Assembly (NCBI RefSeq): GCF_004005855.1
Contig: NZ_SACL01000003.1
Coordinates: forward strand, 248,001-312,000
Source: Rhodovarius crocodyli
Lineage (GTDB): Bacteria > Pseudomonadota > Alphaproteobacteria > Acetobacterales > Acetobacteraceae
Reading direction: 5' to 3'
DNA: 64,000 bases
A model generated the notes under the pieces. The model had not been told where the DNA came from and did not search any database. It saw only the letters and a program-made list of their open reading frames with translations. Position 1 is the first letter of the stretch; every line of letters starts with the position of its first letter. This document shows, piece after piece, positions 41,316-44,268 of this stretch. Position numbers and translations under genes: made by a program.

Positions 41316-42821
41316 CTAGGCGTGGACCCCTTCCGAACGCCATGCGGCCAGTTTGCGATAGATGGTGGACGGATTCACCCCCAGCAATGCCGCTGCCTTC
41401 GGCACATCCTGTCCGGTGTGGTCCAGCGCGGCCAGGATGCAGCGGCGCTCCACCACCGCCAGTGGCTCGATGGATGCGGGCTGCGGCGGTGGGGCCATGG
41501 GGGGCGGGGCGGGCGCGAAGGCCGTGACCGGCGCGGGCGAAGGCGGGGCTGCCACATGAGCCACCGCCGGCGGCGGCGCGACCATGGGCGGCACGGGTGC
41601 TGCCGCGGGCTGGGGCGCTGCCGCGGGCAGGGCTGGCGCCGGCAGCGGCGGCAGCATGCCTGGCGTCACCACGTCACCGTCATGCAGCACCACGACGTTG
41701 CGCACCGCGTTCTGCAACTGCCGCACATTGCCCGGCCACGGATAGGCGCTGATCGCGGCCTCCGTCTCGCGGGCGAAGCCCCGGAAGCGGCGGCCTTCCT
41801 CCTTCGCGAAGCGCGTCAGGAAATGCCGCGCGATCAGCAGCACATCCTCCCCGCGCTCCCGCAGCGGGGGCAGGGCGATGGGCACCACATACAGGCGGTA
41901 ATACAGGTCCTCGCGGAAGCGCCCGGCCTCCACCTCCGCCAGCGGATCGCGGTTGGTGGCCGAGACGATGCGCACATCGGCCTTCTCCGGCCGGGCGGCG
42001 CCCACGGGCTGGAAGCTGCCGGTCTGCAGGAAGCGCAGCAGCTTCACCTGCATGTCCAGCCGCATCTCCCCCACCTCGTCCAGGAACAGGGTGCCGCCTT
42101 CGGCCTGGCGCGCGGCGCCGGCGCGGTTGTCGATGGCGCCGGTGAAGGCGCCCTTCACATGGCCGAAGATCTCGCTCTCGATCAGGTCCTTCGGGATGGC
42201 GCCGCAGTTGATGGCGACGAAGGGGCCCTTGGCGCGCGGGCTGGCCTTGTGGATGGCCTCGGCCGCCAGTTCCTTGCCGGTGCCGCTTTCGCCCGTGATG
42301 AACACATTGGCGCGTGAGGGTGCCACGCTCTCGATGGTGCGATAGACGGCCTGCATGGCGGGCGAGGCACCGACGAAGCCGAAGAAGCGCCCGCGGTTCA
42401 GCTGCTGCTTCACGGCCGTCAGCTCGGCCCGCAGGGCGCGGTTCTCCAGCGCGTTGTCCAGCGTGACCTTCAGCCGGGCCTTGCCATAGGGCTTCACGAT
42501 GAAGTCGATGGCGCCCTCGCGCATCGCCTCCACCGCCGTGTTCACGCTGCCATTGGCGGTCAGCACGATCATTGCGGCCTCGCTGCCTTCCGCGCGCAGG
42601 CGGCGCATCAGCTCGAAGCCGGAGAAGTCGGGCAACTGCAGGTCAACCAGGACGGCGTCGGCCGGCCATTCCTGCGCCAGCAGCAGCGCCTGGGCGCCGG
42701 TGGCGGCGTGGCGCACCTCGTGGCCCAGGGCGGCCAGCATGGCCTTGGCGACCTCGGCCTGGGTGGGCGTGTCCTCGACGAGGAGCACACGGCCGGTCGG
42801 TGCGGTGACGGTCTCGCTCAC
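41316..42821 (-). CDS. NtrC-type sigma-54-dependent response regulator
   Basis: 501 aa, GTG start. Receiver domain residues 10-125 with acidic pocket E16/D17, phospho-acceptor D60, T88 and K110. AAA+ domain about 150-380 with Walker A GESGTGKE, sigma-54 contact loop GAFTGA and [12 protein letters not shown]. Then a Pro/Ala-rich linker of about 70 residues and a Fis-type helix-turn-helix ([19 protein letters not shown]). It opens sigma-54 promoters once phosphorylated. It is last in the operon and may act on the operon's own sigma-54 promoter. GCGTCGCA, a piece of the palindrome at 44234-44256, recurs 8 bases before its start. Confidence 0.93.
42396..42821 (-). repeat. Receiver-domain duplication, copy in the NtrC-type gene
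   Basis: Codons 1-142 align without gaps with codons 1-142 of the tail-anchored receiver gene (43014-43439); about 112 of 142 residues are identical by eye. Confidence 0.85.
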
Positions 42822-42872
42822 CGCACAGGCGTCGCATTTTCACCCGGGTCGGGTCAATGCGGGCGCGAAAGC

Positions 42873-43439
42873 TCAGAAACCGAAGCCGGCCACCAGGAAC
42901 AGGCCCAGCACCGCCGCCAGGAAGACCAGCGCGCCGATCGCATAGCGTGTCCGGCTGGAACGGTCATTGCCGTAGCGCCGGGCCGGCGGGCTGGCGGCGG
43001 CGGTGACGAAGGTGTTCAGCTGTTCCTTCACCGCCGTCAGTTCCGCGCGCAGGGCGCGGTTCTCCAGCGCATTGTCCAGCGTGACCTGCAGCCGCGCCTT
43101 GGCATAGGGCTTCACGATGAAGTCGATGGCGCCCTCGCGCATCGCCTGCACCACGTTCTCGACGCCGCTGTTCACCGTCAGCACGATCATCGCGGCCTTG
43201 CTGCCGCGCGCCTTCAGCCGGCGCATCACCTCGAAGCCCGAGATATCGGGCAGTTCCAGGTCCACCAGCACCGCGTCGGGCTGCCATTCCTGGGCGATGG
43301 CCAGGGCCTCGGCCCCGGTGGCGGCGTGGCGCACGTCATGGCCCATTGTGGCCAGCATTGCCTTGGCGACCTCGGCCTGGGTAGGCGTGTCCTCGATCAG
43401 AAGGACGCGTCCGGCGCCCTGCTTGGCTGTCTCGCTCAT
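42873..43439 (-). CDS. Response-regulator receiver with C-terminal membrane anchor
   Basis: 188 aa from ATG 43439. Residues 10-125 form a complete receiver domain (E16/D17, D60, T88, K110), about 79 % identical to that of the NtrC-type protein downstream, including the coiled stretch to residue 142. Instead of an output domain it has a 22-residue linker with Arg (PPARRYGNDRSSRTR) and ends in one hydrophobic segment YAIGALVFLAAVLGLFLVAG followed by F-G-F and the stop. The basic residues before the segment predict receiver in the cytoplasm and tail in the membrane. The tail matches the 48-aa microprotein encoded at 43878. It could sequester phosphoryl groups or the HPt at the membrane. Confidence 0.85.
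   Translation of the reverse strand: MSETAKQGAGRVLLIEDTPTQAEVAKAMLATMGHDVRHAATGAEALAIAQEWQPDAVLVDLELPDISGFEVMRRLKARGSKAAMIVLTVNSGVENVVQAMREGAIDFIVKPYAKARLQVTLDNALENRALRAELTAVKEQLNTFVTAAASPPARRYGNDRSSRTRYAIGALVFLAAVLGLFLVAGFGF
43014..43439 (-). repeat. Receiver-domain duplication, copy in the tail-anchored gene
   Basis: Partner of 42396-42821; same length and frame. Codon 143 onwards is unrelated in the two genes. Confidence 0.85.
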
Positions 43440-43449
43440 GCTGCTGCGC

Positions 43450-43800
43450 TCAGTTGCCGGCGAGCTGGTGCAGTTCCTGCAGGGCGGACCGGCTTTCGGC
43501 CGAAAGCCGGGGCAGCACCTCGCTGGGTGAGACGGGCTGCGCCGGGTCCATGGCGGTGCGGGCCTCCACCTCCAGCCGGCGGGCGCCGACGGCGGCGGCG
43601 GCACCGGCCAGGCTGTGCGCGGCGCGCAGATAGCCGTCCAGGTCTCCCTCGCCGGCGGATTGCGTCAGCTCTCCGGTCAGGCGGGCGAGGTCCGCCTCGA
43701 AGGTCGCGATGATCCGGCGAAAGATCTCGGGGGGCAGATCGTCGGCCAGCTGGCCGGCGATGGAGGGGTCGATGGCGCTCACGGTGAAGAGAGGTCGCAT
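43450..43800 (-). CDS. HPt-domain phosphotransfer protein
   Basis: 116 aa from ATG 43800, helical throughout. The phospho-histidine is H62 in A-A-H-S-L-A-G-A-A-A-A-V-G; the usual lysine three residues after it (H-x-L-K-G) is alanine here. It should relay phosphate between an unlinked kinase and one or both receivers encoded directly downstream (10-base gap to the tail-anchored receiver). An HPt next to a sigma-54 activator recalls LuxU-LuxO of vibrios, by layout only. Confidence 0.85.
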   Translation of the reverse strand: MRPLFTVSAIDPSIAGQLADDLPPEIFRRIIATFEADLARLTGELTQSAGEGDLDGYLRAAHSLAGAAAAVGARRLEVEARTAMDPAQPVSPSEVLPRLSAESRSALQELHQLAGN

Positions 43801-43877
43801 TATAACCCAACCCAGGTCAATGACCCGCCGGCCCGGCGTGACGCTCCGCGGCATTGTGCCTGCGGCGGGTGCCATGG

Positions 43878-44024
43878 CTAGAAACTGAACCCGGCGACGA
43901 GGAACAACCCCATCACGGCCGCCAGGAAGGCGACGGCGCCCATGGCATAACGCAGCCCGCCAGGGCGGGCCTGCCCGTGGCGTCGGGCGCGGGGATGGTC
44001 CGCGGCGCTGATCTGATGGGTCAT
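43878..44024 (-). CDS. Single-TM microprotein 2, sharing the receiver's membrane tail
   Basis: 48 aa from ATG 44024; GAGGG lies four to five bases upstream, inside the end of microprotein 1. The first 24 residues are polar and basic (M-T-H-Q-I-S-A-A-D-H, R-A-R-R-H-G-Q). The rest is one hydrophobic helix YAMGAVAFLAAVMGLFLVAG plus F-S-F. This is close to the last 23 residues of the tail-anchored receiver, and the DNA is recognisably related as well. Positive-inside rule puts the N-terminus in the cytoplasm. Possible partner or spacer subunit of that receiver in the membrane. Confidence 0.7.
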   Translation of the reverse strand: MTHQISAADHPRARRHGQARPGGLRYAMGAVAFLAAVMGLFLVAGFSF

Positions 44025-44031
44025 GTGACCC

Positions 44032-44172
44032 TCAAAGGCCCGCGACGGCGAACAGGCCCACGACGCCGCCCATGAACAGCGCGCAGCGGAACACATAGCC
44101 CACCGGGCTGACGCGCGCGTCGGCGTTCAGCCGGACGGGCGCGGTGGAGGAAGCGGCGATCATGGTGGTCAT
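44032..44172 (-). CDS. Single-TM microprotein 1
   Basis: 46 aa from ATG 44172 with GAGG eight bases upstream, about 30 bases after a sigma-54 promoter. Polar N-terminus (M-T-T-M-I-A-A-S-S), then one hydrophobic helix VFRCALFMGGVVGLFAVAGL at the very C-terminus. V-G-L-F-x-V-A-G-x matches the tails of microprotein 2 and of the receiver protein. The conserved promoter, ribosome site and family resemblance make it real despite its size. First gene of the phosphorelay operon. Confidence 0.7.
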   Translation of the reverse strand: MTTMIAASSTAPVRLNADARVSPVGYVFRCALFMGGVVGLFAVAGL

Positions 44173-44200
44173 GGGGGTAGCCTCGAAGTCAGGGCTACCG

Positions 44201-44220
44201 CCATGCAGGCCGCGTGCCAG
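44201..44220 (-). promoter_or_regulatory. Predicted sigma-54 (RpoN) promoter of the phosphorelay operon
   Basis: On the minus strand CTGGCACG-CGGC-CTGCA matches the RpoN consensus YTGGCACG-N4-TTGCW except for one base of the -12 element. GG and GC are ten bases apart as required. Expected start of transcription is near 44193, 20 bases before the microprotein 1 start codon. Confidence 0.75.
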
Positions 44221-44227
44221 CGATTTT

Positions 44228-44268
44228 CCTGAAATGCGTCGCAAATTGCGACGCATCATGCCTTCAGG
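44228..44268. promoter_or_regulatory. 23-nt perfect palindrome in a longer stem, possible activator site
   Basis: Arms ATGCGTCGCAA and TTGCGACGCAT flank a single A (44234-44256). Outer arms CCTGAA (44228-44233) and TTCAGG (44263-44268) extend the pairing with a 6-base bulge. It sits about 50 bases upstream of the predicted sigma-54 start site and overlaps the MFS stop codon. It may bind the NtrC-type product, or be a terminator of the MFS gene; there is no T-run after it. Confidence 0.6.

Follow-up and report, generated by a model that had tools for sequence, protein, structure and literature searches.

The locus examined here lies in a 64,000-nt stretch of Rhodovarius crocodyli DNA (assembly GCF_004005855.1, contig NZ_SACL01000003.1), which is called the window throughout and whose genome carries the handle G000. 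On the minus strand it consists, in order, of a palindrome, a predicted sigma-54 promoter, two microprotein genes, a gene for a stand-alone HPt protein, a gene for a receiver with a membrane tail and a gene for a sigma-54 activator. The five head-to-tail genes, the promoter and the palindrome had been reported in a sequence-only reading of this DNA, and all of them were found to be present. Taken together, the comparisons described below make it reasonably probable that the regulatory core of the locus is a phosphorelay of the LuxU-LuxO type, in which a LuxO-type operator and a sigma-54 promoter would drive the microprotein genes.

The activator gene (41316..42821, minus strand, GTG start) encodes a protein of 501 amino acids (aa) with Pfam matches to Response_reg, Sigma54_activat and HTH_8. 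Its LuxO architecture is complete, with a receiver, an AAA+ domain containing GAFTGA and a Fis-type helix-turn-helix (HTH) with a PSTIYRKL recognition helix, and the alignment showed that the receiver Asp, Thr and Lys, Walker A, GAFTGA and Walker B are kept. The best NCBIfam model was LuxO (558.9 bits, compared to 397.6 bits for the next model, AtoC), and the best PDB sequence match was LuxO 5ep0 (1.2e-125). In a tree of 38 rows, the activator fell within a 100/100 clade together with LuxO relatives of Vibrio, Aliagarivorans and Azospirillum, and three other sigma-54 activators of the window genome (L003, L004 and L005), which have long branches, were placed outside this clade. NCBIfam, PDB and the tree, with its long-branched outgroup rows, agree that the activator is nearer to LuxO than to NtrC, AtoC or FlbD. 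The score is below the NCBIfam cut-off for the Vibrio LuxO equivalog (558.9 compared to 800 bits); by these matches the activator is a family-level relative of LuxO and not a Vibrio equivalog. An alanine scan of V. cholerae LuxO reported eleven essential HTH residues, six of them in helix 3 (PMC11407668). When the register was mapped via the alignment row of Vibrio neptunius LuxO (L130), eight of the eleven were identical in the activator, including six of six in helix 3, and the three that differ occupy positions 409-411.

Two further observations concern LuxO relatives. The activators of Falsiroseomonas algicola and Roseomonas ponticola (L104, L105) have GAFSGA in place of GAFTGA. The window genome also contains a second HPt-LuxO pair (L035, G000:C33:187000-198000), which forms a separate LuxO lineage in the tree and has a perfect 24-bp palindrome, GTGCCGGGGCGCGCGCCCCGGCAC, approximately 200 nt before its HPt gene.

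The HPt gene (43450..43782, minus strand) encodes 110 aa from a GTG codon, with an alternative ATG start at 43800. The product matched PF01627 above the cut-off (1.4e-8), and no PDB sequence match was obtained at E<=0.1. The phospho-acceptor His lies in AAHSLAGAAAAVGA and was invariant in 21 aligned rows, and the relay residues are kept in the HPt protein as well as in both receivers. The protein stands alone, has the conserved His and is linked to luxO, as is expected of a LuxU-type protein; by analogy it would hold a LuxU-like position in the relay, and membership of the LuxU family is not claimed. In published comparisons, strong bidirectional LuxU matches were reported only for three Vibrio strains among 138 organisms (PMC524169), and LuxO is treated as part of the LuxQ/LuxN/CqsS pathways (PMC8895600). 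The earlier observation that no histidine kinase is encoded nearby held for the six flanking open reading frames (ORFs) scanned (MFS, carbonic anhydrase, TetR, epimerase, TctC and YhdP-like), none of which had a kinase domain; kinases farther away were not searched.

An RpoD-like element of the type TTGACC-N17-GCGAC (43794..43820, minus strand) ends 11 nt before the GTG codon of the HPt gene, which would give a near-leaderless start, and by its position the GTG at 43782 is the more likely HPt start. An element of this kind (TTGACC-N17/18-GC(G/C)AC) immediately precedes the HPt start at 12 of 18 loci from several genera and is absent from L031, L033, L034, L209, L210 and L106. The Caulobacter RpoD consensus is TTGaCgS / GCtANAWC (PMC8144410), and the TTGACC element is taken as the predicted, RpoD-like basal promoter of the HPt-luxO pair. 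A second copy of this leader precedes the activator gene (42831..42857, minus strand) in the window and is missing from G005. A sigma-70 reading of a TATAAT before the HPt gene was rejected: its spacing to TTGACC is only 10, the scan found none, and the Caulobacter consensus fits TTGACC...GCGAC better.

Since the pair would have its own RpoD-like promoter, the sigma-54 promoter would add an autoregulated input and would not be the only promoter. The description of the locus in the sequence-only reading as a self-contained operon under sigma-54 control therefore stood in part. A phosphorelay linked to the membrane, the near-consensus promoter and an activator able to fire it were supported, and positive autoregulation is plausible by read-through from the microprotein promoter. 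The word self-contained did not survive: the conserved element before the HPt start looks like a separate housekeeping promoter, and in other genera, as in the congener G006, HPt-luxO pairs were found that have no microprotein gene beside them.

Microprotein 1 (46 aa; 44032..44172, minus strand) has a basic N-terminal stretch followed by a single C-terminal transmembrane (TM) helix with a GLF..AG motif, and microprotein 2 (48 aa; 43878..44024, minus strand) belongs to the same family. Neither matched any Pfam family (E<=0.1) or NCBIfam family (E<=0.01). A profile built from the window's genus, which may miss distant members, matched in six of the nine genomes examined from the genus, the best E-value being 8e-24, and the members have 41-54 residues and a single TM helix. 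Twelve stand-alone microprotein genes were counted in the genus, two each in the window genome, G005, G003 and G008, three in G006 and one, starting with TTG, in G001. Copies adjoin luxO in G000, G005, G003, G008 and G001, and copies located elsewhere were found in G003, G008 and G006; ORF calling by length around the dispersed copies yielded mostly frames that looked spurious. A sigma-54-type promoter lies 47-53 nt before the start of 11 of the 12 genes, the only exception being microprotein 2 of the window, which follows microprotein 1 at a distance of 7 nt. In other genera, sigma-54-type promoters were likewise found before microprotein-like genes, namely in g61 (G147, G237, G068), g16 (G023) and g53 (G060, G234, G144).

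The microprotein ORFs keep their start, length, TM helix and -LF..AG(F/L) end across four genera. Microprotein 1 has a match at 64% in G005, and its nonsynonymous divergence (dN) was 0.22, with a synonymous divergence (dS) of 0.61. Translation is favoured by the codon comparison of distant pairs (dN/dS of 0.35 and 0.49) and of one close pair (0.12), but dN was about equal to dS in two of the three close pairs. Those two pairs, together with the many spurious ORFs that GC-rich DNA yields, would suit an ordinary LuxO-like two-component operon with small ORFs lying upstream by chance. A profile that reaches 8e-24 and recurs in most genomes of the genus, with promoters before all but one of the genes, speaks against such an accident, which we consider extremely improbable.

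The short transcripts could instead be Qrr-like regulatory RNAs to which the small ORFs are secondary. The LuxO targets of vibrios are small regulatory RNAs (sRNAs), the microprotein genes are likewise short, several per genome and often represented by one copy beside luxO, and inverted repeats occur in the leaders of several copies. No Rfam match was found in the 64-kb window at the gathering threshold, however, the ORFs are conserved in the four genera as described above, and the tail also occurs within a larger protein. Folding of 20 leaders counted from the predicted +1 was ordinary (mean z +0.21, none significant), whereas the same leaders counted from -8 gave a mean z of -1.49, with p<=0.02 for seven of the 20, all in the window's genus. 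Regulatory RNAs as the principal products are therefore very unlikely. By eye, the inverted repeats between promoter and start codon read GGTAGCC/GGCTACC in the window (44176-44199) and GATGTCC/GGACATC in G005, with three paired changes between the two, and repeats are present in other microprotein leaders too.

The palindrome upstream of these genes is the 23-bp ATGCGTCGCAATTTGCGACGCAT (44234..44256, without strand), which contains the 13-bp core TCGCAATTTGCGA at 44239-44251. The sigma-54 promoter, TGGCACGCGGCCTGCA, with its -24 and -12 elements, lies at 44204..44219 on the minus strand, with a predicted +1 near 44193. The core, TCGCA-ATT-TGCGA, has a 5-3-5 layout and is one symmetric base change away from the Vibrio LuxO site consensus TTGCA-W3-TGCAA (PMC11443567); it is predicted to be bound as a LuxO-type operator. 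The likeness to LuxU-LuxO, which had been noted as partial, is thus stronger than first described, as the activator is of the LuxO family and the palindrome agrees with the LuxO site in its half-sites, their spacing and the total length.

A compound pattern of operator plus sigma-54 promoter was built from six promoters in five genomes, which match it by construction. Of 24 genomes, seven had it, at 10 places altogether, and all seven belong to the window's genus; the reversed control pattern gave 0, so that the count exceeds chance. At its four new places the gene that follows is a microprotein gene (G006) or is glycosyltransferase-like (one each in G003, G008 and G004). A census was then taken of the dyad TYGCA-N3-TGCRA, the Y and R positions being taken from the window's genus, in the 300 nt before each promoter (240 nt for one). 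A dyad with at most one mismatch was present at 18 of 18 microprotein sigma-54-type promoters, 11 in the genus and seven in three other genera, compared to 0.02 dyads expected per region in a letter-shuffled control (17 regions plus control; G068 was added separately). The half-sites are mostly TCGCA in the window's genus and TTGCA in g53. Within the genus, 7-21 nt separate the dyad from the -24 element, and for the majority of promoters it is the only one within 300 nt that has no more than one mismatch, the exceptions being G001, G006 C13 and microprotein 2 of G005, whose distal dyad is the site of microprotein 1. In g53 and g16 a one-mismatch dyad touches the -24 element; g53 has in addition a perfect dyad 230-242 nt upstream, whose half-sites in G234 and G144 are strictly those of Vibrio (TTGCA-N3-TGCAA). 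The promoters of g61 have a perfect TCGCAAAATGCGA 154-155 nt upstream and no dyad nearby. NtrC and FlbD were considered as regulators of the promoter and rejected, since the operator has LuxO half-sites and tracks the microprotein genes; the window genome encodes NtrC (702 bits, above cut-off) and an FlbD-like protein (648 bits, cut-off 750).

The spacing of the operators bears on whether the palindrome might be a repressor site, at which LuxO or another dimeric regulator blocks the sigma-54 promoter while the true activator binds elsewhere. The centre of the window dyad lies approximately 52 nt upstream of the predicted start, whereas LuxO sites described in Vibrio fluvialis lie at -89 to -119 (PMC11443567), and so close a spacing, which counts against activation by LuxO, could mean repression or another protein. 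A protein bound to the proximal dyads of the genus, or to those touching the -24 element in g53 and g16, could hinder polymerase, and the second, perfect dyad of g53 would suit a separation of activating from hindering sites. Against repression, the half-sites and the 5-3-5 spacing of the dyad are those of LuxO sites, and the activator has kept the recognition helix; most promoters of the genus have the proximal dyad as their only candidate activator site, and the only good dyad of g61 is distal. The census gives slightly more weight to the LuxO-type relay acting on microprotein genes and slightly less to repression, which we rate as quite unlikely.

The third membrane-tailed product is the receiver (42873..43439, minus strand; 188 aa), which has a Pfam Response_reg match and a C-terminal TM tail. 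Its receiver domain and that of the activator form a 300-nt repeat at 83%, indicating that they are duplicates. Its C-terminus matches microprotein 2 at 27 of 44 residues (61%, 2e-16), with a 132-nt DNA repeat at 71%. By these two repeats the protein combines a copied LuxO receiver with a microprotein tail, in agreement with the shared membrane tail first noticed from the sequence, and the two microproteins are of one family. Among 40 genomes searched, the full-length protein was found in G000 and G005 only. Of the ordered gene set, microprotein(s), HPt and activator were found again, in this order, in four congeners (G001, G003, G005 and G008), and the complete tail-anchored receiver in G005 alone among those 40.

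Since the tail is fused to a receiver of the relay, it may be expected to act where the relay acts, and the microproteins thus probably bind a membrane kinase. On the proposed scheme, a candidate membrane hybrid kinase would pass phosphate to the HPt protein and this in turn to the LuxO-family activator, which, by extension of what is known of LuxU-LuxO, would when phosphorylated bind the TCGCAATTTGCGA operator and open the sigma-54 promoter beside it. The chief recurring target would be the gene for a tiny tail-anchored membrane protein and not an sRNA, and read-through would raise the HPt protein, the decoy receiver and the activator above their basal, RpoD-like expression (positive autoregulation). 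The tail of the microproteins would most likely bind a membrane partner in this relay, probably the kinase; docked via the same tail, the tail-anchored receiver would take phosphate from the HPt protein and act as a sink that damps the loop. Sequence comparison supports the gene families, the LuxO clade, the operator and promoter syntax, the paralogous dispersed targets and the receiver-tail fusion on which the scheme is built; direct operator binding, activation as opposed to repression, the direction of feedback and the identity of the membrane partner are what we infer from them. The feedback role of the microproteins and decoy receiver, taken alone, is held as a tentative and rather doubtful proposal. 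The wider proposal that in some of the Acetobacteraceae a LuxO switch was rewired from sRNAs to multicopy microproteins tuning the kinase, with the tail-receiver fusion of one lineage as a membrane-docked phosphate sink, is on the whole unlikely as stated.

The microproteins might instead be output effectors, for example small subunits for a membrane enzyme or for polysaccharide export, that exert no feedback, the receiver tail being a mere anchor. The compound operator-promoter precedes glycosyltransferase-2-like genes in G003, G008 and G004, and the microproteins are dispersed and multicopy. The glycosyltransferase-2-like proteins of G003 and G004 scored 19.9 and 21.5 bits, below the Pfam threshold of 23.3, and that of G008 was not scanned. 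A looser pattern applied to 200 genomes of the family gave 42 places in 33 genomes compared to 11 for the reversed pattern, so that about a quarter of its matches are expected by chance. Five of the 42 places precede microproteins (G000, G005 twice, G060 and G144). Of 30 loci, 26 were returned in readable form, and four gave no match on re-search; the genes downstream included, in other genera, one for a GlmS-like GATase/SIS protein (G107) and one for a glycosyltransferase of GT4 type (G044), both of which would suit effectors. Others, read by eye, were glnB-like and ammonium-transporter-like and look like NtrC targets; with these among the matches, a role in surface polysaccharide is a lead and not a result. 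The only fusion partner of the tail that was seen is the LuxO receiver itself, which argues against effectors without feedback. We regard them as a credible alternative, somewhat short of probable.

The distribution of the microproteins was compared with that of the HPt protein. In 100 genomes of the family, the HPt search gave 28 genomes at E<=1e-10 and 10 at E<=1e-20. Microprotein matches at E<=1e-3, obtained in a search of 299 genomes, included five of those 100 (G000, G005, G023, G060 and G068), and all five fall among the ten with HPt at E<=1e-20; two of them are congeneric, which leaves four independent genera. These findings suggest that the recurring target behind the LuxO-type switch is the microprotein family, which would be a new type of target.

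Several results weigh against so general a link. The other five of the ten genomes with a good HPt match (G011, G013, G019, G048 and G083) had no microprotein match, and at E<=0.01 G043 and G071 also matched, without HPt, the matches lying in a 512-aa frame and across a stop. No microprotein was found in 14 genomes reached via named loci, including Falsiroseomonas algicola and Roseomonas ponticola, a search that had no positive control, nor in the LuxO loci examined from Falsiroseomonas, Azospirillum, Vibrio and others. G004 has a compound site and gave no match in the 40-genome search, its assembly being 69% complete. For a second type of g53 microprotein (L084, L085, L088, L090 and L103), neither a good sigma-54 promoter nor a perfect dyad within 450 nt was found, although two of them have a one-mismatch match. 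By eye, four of these (L084, L085, L088 and L090; MLIEPI.../MIIEPV...) share the tail and have in common an upstream stretch resembling CGAACGGC-TTTACACCTTCTTAGC.

The proposed relay resembles the Vibrio LuxU-LuxO-Qrr system in the passage from an HPt protein to a LuxO-family sigma-54 activator, in the half-sites and spacing of the operator, and in having several short targets, one beside luxO and others dispersed. It differs from that system in that the targets are genes for TM microproteins, Rfam giving no Qrr-type sRNA in the window, the operators in the window's genus lie much nearer to the promoter, the HPt gene is upstream of luxO and its product has no sequence match to a solved structure, and the duplicated receiver bears a membrane tail. 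The LuxO homologues of Azospirillum, Kiloniella and other Alphaproteobacteria belong to the same LuxO clade; unlike the window, the 14 genomes mentioned above yielded no microprotein, and near Azospirillum luxO an HPt match lies on the opposite strand (L109, L110, L111 and L113). MgrB (47 aa, PhoQ/PhoP regulon) inhibits the PhoQ kinase (PMC8404706) and is likewise a small membrane protein under the control of its own signalling system, which shows that such feedback exists elsewhere. In contrast to MgrB, the relay here is of the LuxO/sigma-54 type and the tail is also fused to a receiver; no sequence relation is claimed. In the open-licence PMC literature on LuxO/LuxU with Roseomonas, Acetobacteraceae, Azospirillum or membrane-anchored response regulators, the arrangement was not found among the matches listed, as judged by their titles and the start of their abstracts.

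If the proposal is correct, the output layer of LuxU-LuxO could be swapped from regulatory RNA to membrane peptide with the operator code and the multicopy, dispersed layout kept. The microproteins would form a defined family with a predicted partner, to which the receiver-tail fusion is a natural clue, and a readable operator, making their function directly testable. One lineage would then possess a complete feedback circuit assembled from duplicates of parts of its regulator and of its target.

Downstream of the activator, a gene for a 4Fe-4S ferredoxin (Fer4 + DUF3470; 40919..41251, minus strand) was found, which adjoins luxO in five congeners too (L026-L030) and is not counted as a member of the relay. 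The N-terminal part of the YhdP-like ORF (35405-40912) was seen by eye to contain long degenerate acidic P/E-rich repeats.

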